Shown here one piece after another: positions 38,555 through 44,500 of a stretch of DNA of 64,000 nt. The notes beneath the pieces were generated by a model that was not told the DNA's origin, searched no databases, and saw only the letters and a program-made list of their open reading frames with translations. The stretch is taken from assembly GCA_009869945.1 (NCBI GenBank), contig WIXG01000013.1, positions 310,001-374,000 on the forward strand, written 5' to 3'. Numbering within the stretch: the stretch's first letter is position 1; each line of letters starts with the position of its first letter. The position numbers and the translations under genes were made by a program. Origin of the DNA: Mesaphorura yosii. Its lineage: Eukaryota; Arthropoda; Collembola; Poduromorpha; Tullbergiidae.

Positions 38555-41500
38555 TTAGTAGTACGTTTCCAACCTGAAATTCCAACATGCATGGTTAACA
38601 AGTGTCAACTCATCTGTCGTGGGTGAGGAAATAGCAAAGAGAACTTACTCTACGAAACCGCCCGGATTTCTACGCAGTATGAATCTTCTGGTTTCGTCAT
38701 AAACGAATATAGCTAATGAAAACGGCAAGGCTGGCAACCACCAAGTGAACCTGCATGGAAATTATGATTCATTAATAAATTGATCCTTGACTCCGCTGTT
38801 TCATGAATAAAATTTGGCAAGAGCTTACTTGAGTGGGTACATTCTGAGAGCAGCCTCCATGCCTGGAGTGTACGACAAGACGGCCGCCAGGGCTGTCTCA
38901 AATACCAAGCCAAAGTTTAGGACCCAATTCCTGCAAACGGTGACTTATTAGATGATCTCATTTTTCCACATAACGTGTAACGCTTACATAGCATAGTAGC
39001 TTATATAGACTTTCGTACCTCATTCCCTGATGAACGATGGAATTGCGTCGGGTTTTGCAAATAATCAAATCTGCCCACTGCACGATGACAATAGACACGA
39101 AAAAAGCAGTGTGACAAGTGTATTCAAGCTTCTTCCGGTCGGCATAGGTCTGTTTCAAAAAGAAAGAAGCCAAATCAGACGAATTCAGAAAATTTCTCGC
39201 TTTTGATTCTTACCCATTCCTGTCCGTACGAGTCTCTCAAATCGTTGACGCCCTTCGAGTCCCATTGTTTTCGAATGCCAAACACATCTTTGGGACGGAA
39301 TCCATTCTCAGCCAGGATGATGAAGTATGTAAAGAACCCAGCTGCTGCTTGAATCATACCGATTTGCCCATATGCCATCGAGATCAACCTTTCGTTAAAC
39401 AATACGATTAGCTCCCGAAATTCAATTGTATTAAGTTACGGCTCAGCTAATTGCAGCAGCTGCAAGAGGCGTCACTCTCACACATGTGAAATGTGAAAAC
39501 CAAATGTGGACATCACATCAAAACAGAATCATGTTAGCTTACAATTACATGGCGTCGTGAAATTCAACTCAAAATTAGCGACAGTTCAACTCAAAAGAGC
39601 TTCTAGAACAATCAAACGTTACAAATGTGTGAAATTTCTAAAAATTCAAATGTGCGAAACCACAAGACGTTAAAGCGTTTAACGAACACTTCACAAAAGT
39701 ATTGTCTAGCACATTTATAGCAATCGACCTAGAACAAATAAGCATCAATTAGGAGGAACAGGTTTCCCATATAACTAGGCTACCACGGCTAAGCAACACA
39801 TGCCATCCAACAGTTTCTTTGACCTCAGAGCAGATAATTCCAGCCACAAACTTGACCAAATCATAATTCATTCACCAATTCAATTCCTCCTTGTCTACGA
39901 GTCACGGTCTTAAACTTTACAAGCCCAAAATGGCTGCAGATAATCTTGATGGTTGGGAGCGAGTTAAAGCTACTTATCATTGCGGCGTTAGACAAATGTG
40001 AACATGAGAGAAGGACATGCTCGTCAAGCGTTTCTATACTCTTCACGACTCCGAGCTCGCAGTTTAATTATTACCTGTTGTTTACCAAATTATCGACTTT
40101 TGGGTTTCTTGGCTGCCTATTTCATAAAATATTGTGTTTAAAGAGTGTGTCAACATAAAACTGGGTGTTCAAAATGTATTACGCTTGTTGTACCTTTTCA
40201 TGATATCGCTCTCGCATGCCTCGTATGCCAACTTATGAAACAATTAATATTAATGAGAATGTGTCTACAATCAGCAACCTAATTAAATTAAAATCACTCA
40301 CCGAAATAGCTGGCACCTGTTGTTCAAAAACCCATAAGAAGTGCATAAGTCATAAATCATGAGGTATGTAACCCGCTCAGCTATTTTTGCCTGCTTTCCT
40401 AGTTTTTAGTTGCTTTGTTCCTGATCTGTTCCTAACTTATATTTTTTAAGTTTGGGGCCTTGTAAGCACGGCTTGGTACAAATCGATTCCAAATCACGAT
40501 TGTTATGCTATGATATCTCATTGTATAACTCGAAAATTCATCTCCCACATGTTTCTGTTTAGATTTGACGTTGAAGAAAAGAATAGAACAAAAATTGGAT
40601 TAAAACGAAAAATAAACATGAAAATTAACGAACTTTGCATTCAAAAATCAACTGAAACACACCAATGACAAATATTGCTAGCAGCATCATAATTGTTCAA
40701 ATGATTTGTAATTTCGCACATTTAAAACATCGAAAGCACACGACTTTTAACTAAAGTAGCTTACGAATTAAATGCCAGAGGCGACCGTTTCTGCCCGACC
40801 AATTTTACCTTTCGCATGCTCCATATCACACAACATTGATCGAATAGCAAATTATAACTCAACAGCCTTCTCATCATTCTGTTTTTCGTGGACGTCCAAC
40901 GCGCTTACTGACTTTAAAAGCGAGTCAAGCCTACTTACCTTGGAGCACCAGCTCATCGAACGCACACATACGCACGCACGAAACAACAGCAAGCACAGAA
41001 TTCAGAATGAAAAAATGAATCCCAGCCCAACTATCCATTTACCACATCTTTCTTGTGCTTTTGCTGCTCGCCGTATGTATGCATGGTTCACAAGCGAACG
41101 ACTTTAGAAAGTAATTACCTTTGGTTTACCAGTTTATCGTCTAAAATTATAAATGAAGAGTAAATTAGCAGTGAAAAAAGTGAATCTTACGAAACTCCGA
41201 CTTTCTGAATACGGTAGTGGGTTGGTGCTTACTTATTGGATCACGCGGTTGCCTATTCATACCAACAGGAAGTTTGGAATTACAAATTTGCTTGACACGC
41301 TTGCATAATAGCACAAATAGCCTTGTGTCAGAAAAGAGGCAACCTTCCTGTGTCTTTTGAGAAGACTTTCGACTTTCTTTACGAACCTTCTTAAAAGCAT
41401 TTTAGGAAAGAAAGCGCCTGCATTCTCTGAGACGAAACTACTTGAGCTTTCTGAATGTGCTGTACCTTTTCATGATATCGGACTCGGCTTCCTCTGAATA

Positions 41501-44500
41501 GTATAAGATTATATAATGTAGATAAACATAATAGTATGATATAGTAAGTCTGTCTCCTTACCATATGCCATGGATATAGCCGGAACCTACGTGTCCAAAG
41601 CCACAAACCAAAAAAGAAAAGAAAACACACGCAATGAAATCATAAAGCAAAACGTGAGTGAGCAACACATCGTGAGCAGAACTCAAGATGTGCTGGTTGG
41701 GACAGTACACTTTTTAAACTTGACAGAAAATCATAATTTTTGAGACTGTACGATTGGTGCTTCAATCACTCTCACACAAACGAATAAATGTGCCTGAATC
41801 TCTTGACTCACCAACTGCTTCACTTAAGAGTATGTTACTTACTGACCGAGTTGCACTTAACTTACTGTACCGCTGTTGACCTTAACTTAACTTGACTGCT
41901 ATTCTAGAAGTTTTGGACAGCACAGTCACATGCAAAGCAGTAGGCCATGCTAAGCAGATTTCGAGCATGAGTCGAAGTTAGTGAAAGCGATTCTCAGTTG
42001 GCAATTTTGCAGTTTGCTTGACCTCAGCCCTCCTGGGCCTTACCTTTCGTTTACTAATTTATCAGTTAGAGGATCGCGTGGCCGTCTGTGAAAAATTCAC
42101 AACGTGTAAAGAAGAGTGCGGCAATTATCTTCAGAGTTTACGGAAATAGAAACGTTACTTGAAATGACGATCTCTGAATTGTCTTAAAGGCAAAAACACA
42201 CATAATTACGCGTACCTTTTCATGATATCCGACTCTGGCTCTTCATACGCAAGCGAAATCGCAGGCACCTTTTTAAGACATGATAGGTCGACATTTTAAC
42301 ATTCAAGACTAAAGAGTTACCCGTTTGCAGTAGCGTTTGCGTAAAAAGCAGATAGGAGTTCTTAAACGAAATAACTGGCTAATATTTGATTTTTTTTTGC
42401 AAGAAACGATGCCATTCCATTAAGAGTGAAAAAGTTCGTGCGAGAGATGTGAGATAAATACAAGAAAGGCCGATTCTACAGATTCTGGTGTGCGTGTGCA
42501 ATGTGCAACTTTCACTGGCTGCTAATATAATTCTCATCTCAGGTGCATTGCAACTGTGTAGCAGTGATCATGCAGTTAAAAGTTAGTTCAGCGGTTGATT
42601 TGCAAATCTCATATGCACTATGTTCTACAACTCGGCTAAAAGATGATGCGTAACTATAAACTAGCTAAATACCATTTATACTTTTAAGCCTAAATTCTCC
42701 CTAAGGAAGGAACCGACTGTTACTGCCATGCAAAAATCTAACTAAGACAGAACAGGAGACATGACACTTAACAAATAAAGTAAACTTGGAAATTAAAGTC
42801 AAAAATAAGAAGTTAGAAGAAAAAGTTCAATTTCGGTGGAAGTAGCGGATTTAAATCCTAATTGGAGTAAAATTTGAGGAAATAAAAGGGAATCCATCTC
42901 TAGGTAAATTAGAGTTAGGGATAAAAATTATACCCTCAAAAGTATTAGTTCAAAATGTCAAATTTTGACTCTACTTCTATGAGTTAGTCCTCTAGTGCTC
43001 GAAGTATGAGTGTTACATCAACCGGTTTGTGATGGTGCCTTTAAGTGAATCTGTGAATCTCGACCTCAACTGCTTTGAGTGATCAAATTCAGTGGTATAA
43101 AGTGATTCTACTATTTGTCTACCTTTCTGCCTACCTACTCTCTAACTAGAATTGCTAGAAAGATTTCTTTGCACATGTTTTTCATGAGAAATATTTCGTT
43201 GGATTTGGATGTGATAATTTTGAGAAAGGAAGGATTAACACTCACCATGTCCGTTCCCAGATCGATACACTGGAAATAGAAAGAAAAAGGTTCGTGAAAT
43301 TAAGCAATTGTTACTTCAGTTTATTGCACTCTTTTGTTTTGAGCGAAAAATTACCAGAATAGTTACGGTGCCCAGTGGGAGAGGAACGCTACGAACAGAA
43401 TAGAATTAGAAAATTATGAATTCGAATCCTCTATCATTGGATAGAAGAGTTGAAAATTTACTACACACAAATGCATTAATGCAATTTACTTACTTGAACA
43501 GAATAAAGAGGAGGAAAGGAGAAATCTCAGGAATATTTGAAGTGAGTGTGTATGCAATTGATTTCTTCAAGTTGTCAAAGATCAAACGTCCTTCCTCAAC
43601 ACCAGTAACGATTGAAGCAAAGTTGTCGTCCAGCAAGATCATGTCGGCAGCCTGTTTTGATACATCGGATCCAGCAATACCCATAGCCACACCAATGTCG
43701 GCCTTCTTCAAAGCAGGTGAATCGTTGACACCTACCAAGATACCATGCAATAACCATTTTACATTGTCAACACAGCACCGCTTGTTCTCATTTTCTAAAT
43801 ACCGTCTCCTGTGACAGCGACAATGGCTCCTTGGCGTTGGCAACCTTCAACAATGATCAGTTTCTGCTGTGGCGAAGTACGAGCAAATACGATCTCAGTG
43901 TGGTGTCGCAGAATATCATCGAGTTGATCCGCGTTCAAATCCTTGAATAATGATAATATTCGCAACAATGATAAATGATATTCGATAAATGCTGAGCGCT
44001 GATTGGCTGGCGAAATTGTTTGTTTGTTCCCAACCCCCCAAAGTTTTCCCAACCCCCAAAGTTTCGCAAACCGATCAAGATCTGAGTGGCTATGACTATG
44101 AAAAGTTTCCTACTCATTGTTCAATTAATGTCGCAAAACTCGCCAACTTACCTTGAGTTCCGTTCCGTGAACAACGGCAGCTTTAGCGTCAGATGGATTG
44201 ACTTCCGAGACAGGGATGTTCAGCCTCTGTGCAATATCCTCAACGGTTTCGTTCCCTGATAGACAAAGAGGGTAAAATTAAAATTTTGTTCTATTTTCTC
44301 ACCAGTAAGTTTTCTCACCCTCTGAGATAATTCCGACAGATTTTGCAATGGCCTTGGCTGTGATTGGGTGATCACCAGTAACCATAATGACCTTGATACC
44401 AGCTGAACGACATTTAGCCACGGCATCGGGGACAGCCGCACGAGGAGGATCAATCATAGACATGAGACCGACAAATCGAAGTCCACTGAGTGGGAAGTTT

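Follow-up and report, generated by a model that had tools for sequence, protein, structure and literature searches.

The 64,000-nucleotide stretch analysed here (the window; contig WIXG01000013.1 of the collembolan Mesaphorura yosii, positions 310,001 to 374,000) contains, on the minus strand, a gene for the alpha subunit of Na,K-ATPase. Within this gene, a known arthropod site of mutually exclusive splicing appears to be represented by three tandem alternatives, each a former 95-nucleotide (nt) exon that was split by introns, into two, four and three exons, respectively. We put the probability of this interpretation, which is derived from the sequence, at roughly 0.78. The novelty is that the alternatives are not single exons but are split into small exons. 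Mutually exclusive exons are usually single, and the proposed mechanisms of exclusion (steric limits, reading frame, docking sites) presume one exon per choice, whereas here the cell would choose among small exon groups. A known arthropod site that appears to have been fragmented by introns and yet keeps three alternatives thus lends itself naturally to testing whether choice operates on exons or on assembled segments, and how exclusion survives intron gain. Gene predictors that seek single homologous exons would miss such split alternatives. Since the pump works in neurons and in osmoregulation, isoforms that differ in its L6/7 loop may bear on physiology.

Anatomy of the three cassettes

The three homologous 95-nt alternatives (hereinafter cassettes) lie between a phase-0 donor at 43246 and a phase-2 acceptor at 39388, just as a preliminary description of this locus had placed them (Table 1). 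Each begins in phase 0 after the conserved ..GTDM, ends with AG in phase 2, sums to exactly 95 nt, is open throughout, is bounded and interrupted by GT-AG sites, and is followed by the residues LISMAYGQI. The exon make-up is 53+42 nt in cassette 1, 25+28 and 20+22 nt in cassette 2, and 15+38 and 42 nt in cassette 3. The intron at nt 53, which divides a cassette into an a-half and a b-half, is common to all three, and the remaining inner introns are private (nt 25 and nt 73 in cassette 2, nt 15 in cassette 3). Hence the 53+42 structure originally attributed to every cassette holds for the nt-53 junction in all of them, but in its plain form only for cassette 1.

The alternative segment corresponds to residues 831-862 of this protein, that is, the end of M6 and the L6/7 loop; in the numbering of the mature mammalian alpha subunit, this is approximately residues 810-841, in place of the 804-835 first assigned. 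The predicted cassette products differ at nine positions, which fall in the L6/7 loop and where M6 ends on the cytoplasmic side, with RPRDPL in cassette 1 and QPRNPK in cassette 3. A profile scan of 38401-43800 recovered only these three cassettes and no fourth, decayed one. The tail tttaacgaaag, which precedes the acceptor at 39388, has the 10-mer AACGAAAGGT in common with the end of cassette 1, and the sequence at the shared acceptor, AACGAAAG/GT (39387-39396, minus strand), equals the last bases of cassette 1 together with its donor and reads V-L-F-N-E-R in frame. This repeat may be what is left of the end of a lost cassette, or else a chance match.

In our gene model, 25 constitutive coding exons and one 95-nt cassette make up the Na,K-ATPase alpha coding part, which runs from 51080 to 38555. 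With cassette 1, the coding sequence has 3114 nt and encodes a complete alpha subunit of 1037 amino acids with a single terminal stop; the normal stop is also reached when cassette 2 or 3 is substituted. Each cassette, in this context, aligns over its full length with solved Na,K-ATPases. All model introns are GT-AG save for one GC-AG intron (donor gcaagt, 47303-47312, minus strand).

Table 1. Positions, in the window, of the cassette exons and of the constitutive features that frame them (slashes mark splice sites).
Feature	Positions	Strand	Basis or remark
Cassette 1, exon 1a, 53 nt, ends +AG	42216..42268	-	donor AAG/GTACGC
Cassette 1, exon 1b, 42 nt	42044..42085	-	
Cassette 2, microexon 2a1, 25 nt, VPAISMAY+G	41562..41586	-	
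Cassette 2, microexon 2a2, 28 nt, ..EEAESDIMK+AG	41466..41493	-	
Cassette 2, microexon 2b1, 20 nt, QPRDPI..	41233..41252	-	
Cassette 2, microexon 2b2, 22 nt, NDKLVNQ..	41119..41140	-	
Cassette 3, microexon 3a1, 15 nt, VPAIS	40302..40316	-	
Cassette 3, exon 3a2, 38 nt, ends +AG	40194..40231	-	
Cassette 3, exon 3b, 42 nt	40075..40116	-	
Na,K-ATPase alpha gene, whole coding part, 1037 aa	38555..51080	-	gene model and matches to solved Na,K-ATPases
Constitutive exon of 24 nt (CIDLGTDM) that carries the common phase-0 donor	43246..43269	-	gene model; same exon in paralogue C23
Constitutive exon of 175 nt that carries the common phase-2 acceptor (weak and rich in purines: tttaacgaaag/GTTG)	39214..39388	-	gene model

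The position of the cluster places it at a site of alternative splicing known from other arthropods, and exclusive use is predicted here. Exon 16 of the tick (Ixodes scapularis) gene is described as encoding 31 amino acids homologous to exon 17, with one or the other used according to reverse transcription PCR (RT-PCR; PMC4748274). The primers printed in that paper translate to DMLPAI, QPRNPL, RPRDPL and KDKLVN, which map, respectively, to the start, the middle (QPRNPL and RPRDPL) and the end of the cassettes; the tick exons therefore sit on this very segment. The tick gene resembles the present one in the location, the 31-residue length, the tandem homologous alternatives and the RPRDPL and QPRNPL versions, but has two single-exon alternatives as opposed to three, each in two to four exons. 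Barnacle NAK1 (exons 11a and 11b) and the Daphnia, Anopheles, Ixodes and Drosophila genes are reported to contain between two and four copies in tandem, which are said to exclude one another (PMC3793950, PMC6071210), and Atp-alpha (4) appears in a list of fly mutually exclusive exons (PMC6071210). From the equating of the barnacle and Ixodes genes in the barnacle paper, we infer that barnacle exon 11 occupies this position in the protein (PMC3793950). Thus, the protein position is the same, and three tandem alternatives of about 31 residues fall within the two-to-four range; one uninterrupted exon per alternative, however, is not what is found here, whereas single exons are described for the other arthropod copies (those of barnacle NAK1 span 81-912 bp; PMC3793950). 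A literature search that left out most subscription papers, the original Drosophila study among them, yielded no report of Na,K-ATPase alternatives split into microexons.

Constraint and intron history

The resemblance among the cassettes is not accidental: they are identical at 70, 64 and 71 of 95 nt and at 25, 23 and 23 of 31 amino acids for pairs 1-2, 1-3 and 2-3, respectively. In the same order, the proportion of synonymous differences (pS) is 0.90, 0.71 and 0.53, compared with 0.09, 0.23 and 0.19 for nonsynonymous differences (pN), giving p = 4e-12, 1e-4 and 0.006 (Fisher test on rounded counts). Because synonymous sites are heavily changed and nonsynonymous sites are little changed, all three cassettes are, by this measure of constraint, coding sequence under purifying selection.

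The 18-mer GATATCATGAAAAGGTAC, which covers DIMK and the a-half donor, has just three exact copies in the 93-Mb assembly, every one of them in this cluster, in agreement with the earlier claim of a shared 18-mer over the nt-53 donor. The invariant DIMK and the donor itself account for part of this sharing. The excess consists in the DIMK codons and GTAC being identical while synonymous sites elsewhere diverge heavily: third positions are alike in all three cassettes for the D, I and K codons (3/3), compared with 5/27 outside codons 14-17 (p = 0.014). Of the donors under the 18-mer, those of 2a2 and 3a2 are weak, with nt-53 donor scores of 8.6, -2.0 and 2.7 in cassettes 1, 2 and 3 against a leave-one-out mean of 7.7 (matrix built from 23 donors of this gene); acceptors 2a1 and 3a2 both score 0.3.

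Pump paralogues were matched on five other contigs (C23, C816, C109, C497 and C194), and all five were read by eye across the cassette stretch. None of them contains the intron at nt 53. The 3' boundary is shared by four (all but C194); C23 shares the 5' boundary as well, its 95-nt exon being one undivided piece, and C194 is intronless across this stretch. Being present in three cassettes and in 0/5 paralogues, the nt-53 intron was probably gained, which is a simpler scenario than repeated loss. The cassettes match C23 at 21-23 of 31 amino acids and one another at 23-25 of 31, and are thus nearly as distant mutually as from C23, so that both a single gain before the cassettes split and parallel gains are possible. 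Intron turnover is general in these pump genes: a spliced alignment compares 26 intron positions in the window gene, counted with cassette 1, with 21 in C23 (the N-terminal end of C23 being less certain); 11 positions are shared, and 15 and 10, respectively, are private. The C194 paralogue (C194:80673-81188) is 51% identical, extends for 172 residues without a stop or an intron, unlike the intron-rich paralogues, and brings to mind barnacle NAK2, which has two exons.

Choice among the cassettes

The preliminary description held that mutual exclusion is enforced by frame, which is borne out for whole cassettes. Omission of all cassettes leads to a stop at residue 856 of 1037, and inclusion of cassettes 1+2, 2+3, 1+3 or 1+2+3 to a stop at residue 877. 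The claim does not extend to the 42-nt halves, which can be skipped or added without loss of frame because 42 is 0 modulo 3: the normal stop is reached by 14 of the 64 ordered combinations of the six halves and by 48 of the 512 combinations of the nine exons, including forms of 53, 137 and 179 nt. Frame alone can only clean up, and choice of a cassette therefore requires a splicing mechanism.

The cluster is best read as a set of whole cassettes that exclude one another, a reading supported by the tick RT-PCR precedent at the same site (PMC4748274). The six introns inside the cassettes are 68-213 nt long, compared with 457-977 nt for the four introns around and between them (p = 0.0095). This difference suggests that each cassette is assembled first and one is chosen afterwards. 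Ordinary intron definition would remove the short introns within each cassette, producing a 95-nt composite exon; one of the three composites would then be joined between the shared donor and acceptor across the long introns; and transcripts with no cassette or with two would shift frame and be removed by nonsense-mediated decay (NMD). The resulting pump isoforms would probably have transport kinetics tuned by tissue or state. A more specific version, in which choice acts on composites of two, four and three microexons that are assembled and then picked, the nt-53 intron was gained once or in parallel, and GATATCATGAAAAG/GTAC serves as a shared control point, we advance tentatively and at somewhat less than even odds. 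Steric exclusion is unlikely, with 457 and 802 nt between successive cassettes.

Several observations weigh against exclusive choice among assembled cassettes. The proposed order of assembly rests solely on intron length, yet the gene usually has short introns anyway: of its 23 constitutive ones, 17 measure 59-118 nt. The low scores of the 2a2 and 3a2 donors and of the 1a, 2a1 and 3a2 acceptors could mean that these sites are poorly used. The 42-nt halves escape frame policing, so that some mixing or skipping may occur. A simple consensus search detected no U12-type donor or branch motif in any model intron, and for all six intron pairs RNA duplex energies fell within the range of 40 shuffles, in a test that is insensitive to short stems and favours long, weak duplexes. 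With regard to intron history, arthropod Mhc introns are described as mainly lost rather than gained, which counsels caution in assuming gain without a tree (PMC2257972). With respect to docking and selector elements, the longest exact inverted match among 21 intron comparisons is 12 nt. Rbfox-type GCATG clusters were considered and dropped: the count of 8 was reached in 1/300 single-base shuffles, but at least 8 were present in 4 of 32 equal tiles of the window.

The strongest competitor of exclusive choice among whole cassettes is the joining of any a-half to the b-half of its own cassette or of one that follows. It was originally claimed that all 53-nt halves end in one phase that all 42-nt halves accept, and indeed the nt-53 junctions are all in phase 2 and all six ordered 95-nt forms (1a1b, 1a2b, 1a3b, 2a2b, 2a3b, 3a3b) are open; because cis-splicing follows linear order, this makes at most six forms instead of the nine envisaged. 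The conservation of the 18-mer across the a-half donor in all three cassettes fits such mixing as well. To produce a mixed form, however, the near acceptor has to be skipped, and the cassette's own nt-53 intron is only 77-213 nt, compared with about 960 nt or more to the b-half of the next cassette, which makes regular mixing improbable. Still less probable is a single functional cassette accompanied by two decaying exon duplicates. Some of the splice-site scores given above (the 2a2 donor, the 2a1 and 3a2 acceptors) are low, and barnacle cyprid cDNA is reported to have shown only exon 11b (PMC3793950), but frame, length and GT-AG sites are intact across all nine exons, nonsynonymous change is well below synonymous change in all three pairs, and the match of each cassette to Na,K-ATPase covers its full length. 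The b-halves could, least plausibly of all, be ordinary cassette exons that make the L6/7 loop 14 residues shorter or longer as a normal product, given that the 53-, 137- and 179-nt combinations are open, but the length of this stretch is constant in the solved homologues compared, save for 8k1l_A (two residues shorter), and the literature searched provided no precedent.

Exclusive choice among whole cassettes would depart from other known cases in the unit that is chosen. By the strict definition of mutually exclusive exons, each transcript includes exactly one exon of a cluster (PMC3228551). The cassettes conform in similar length (95 nt), phases (0 to 2), homology (23-25 of 31 amino acids) and adjacency, but the unit is an exon group, not a single exon; the same prediction paper takes multi-exon clusters to be probable products of gene duplication or trans-splicing (PMC3228551). 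Mutually exclusive multi-exon alternatives are described for vertebrate GNAO (pairs 7.1-8.1 and 7.2-8.2), but these form the last pair of exons in that gene and have equal exon numbers, whereas the present alternatives are internal and unequal (PMC5896119). Homologous alternatives with unequal exon numbers are reported for the N-terminal event of tropomyosin (the first two exons versus one homologous 5' exon), in contrast to the internal cluster here (PMC9741552). In some human mutually exclusive exons, joint inclusion breaks the frame and is subject to a frame/NMD check; the cassettes likewise shift frame on joint inclusion, but 42 nt of each, being 0 modulo 3, are unpoliced (PMC5740500).

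Other features of the locus and assembly

An 81-nt exon of the same gene (27 amino acids; 49432-49512, minus strand) is in phase 0 on both sides, so that the frame survives its skipping. It occupies the place of exon 2 of barnacle NAK1 (27 amino acids), an 81-nt N-terminal exon for which alternative splicing is reported to vary with salinity (PMC3793950). Together with the cuticle protein in the window (see below), this exon makes an arthropod source likely.

Downstream on the same strand lies another Na,K-ATPase-like gene (34042-35553, minus strand) with an A-domain (Pfam E1-E2_ATPase, 7.1e-16), and a piece of it at 34240-34416 matches residues beyond the cassette stretch. No catalytic P/N region was found among the intervening open reading frames of at least 120 amino acids. 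This gene appears to be a truncated or dead pump. A scan of viral contigs yielded no relatives.

A tardigrade origin was considered and rejected, since the tardigrade repeat GATGGGTTTT has 0 matches across the assembly. Scans for COX1 and for a universal 18S tail likewise yielded no match. A TTAGG-type pattern has 146+164 matches genome-wide, compared with 13+16 for a reversed-pattern control, and short TTAGG runs occur at C461:1-50, C145:83-180 and C221:111518-111644. No long terminal TTAGG array was present at the four places examined, and the C461 and C145 runs lie inside the same dispersed repeat. The TTAGG excess is weak evidence for the arthropod telomere repeat. Finally, the window contains, at 26134-26502 on the plus strand, a fragment of a cuticle protein (Pfam Chitin_bind_4, 2.4e-9).

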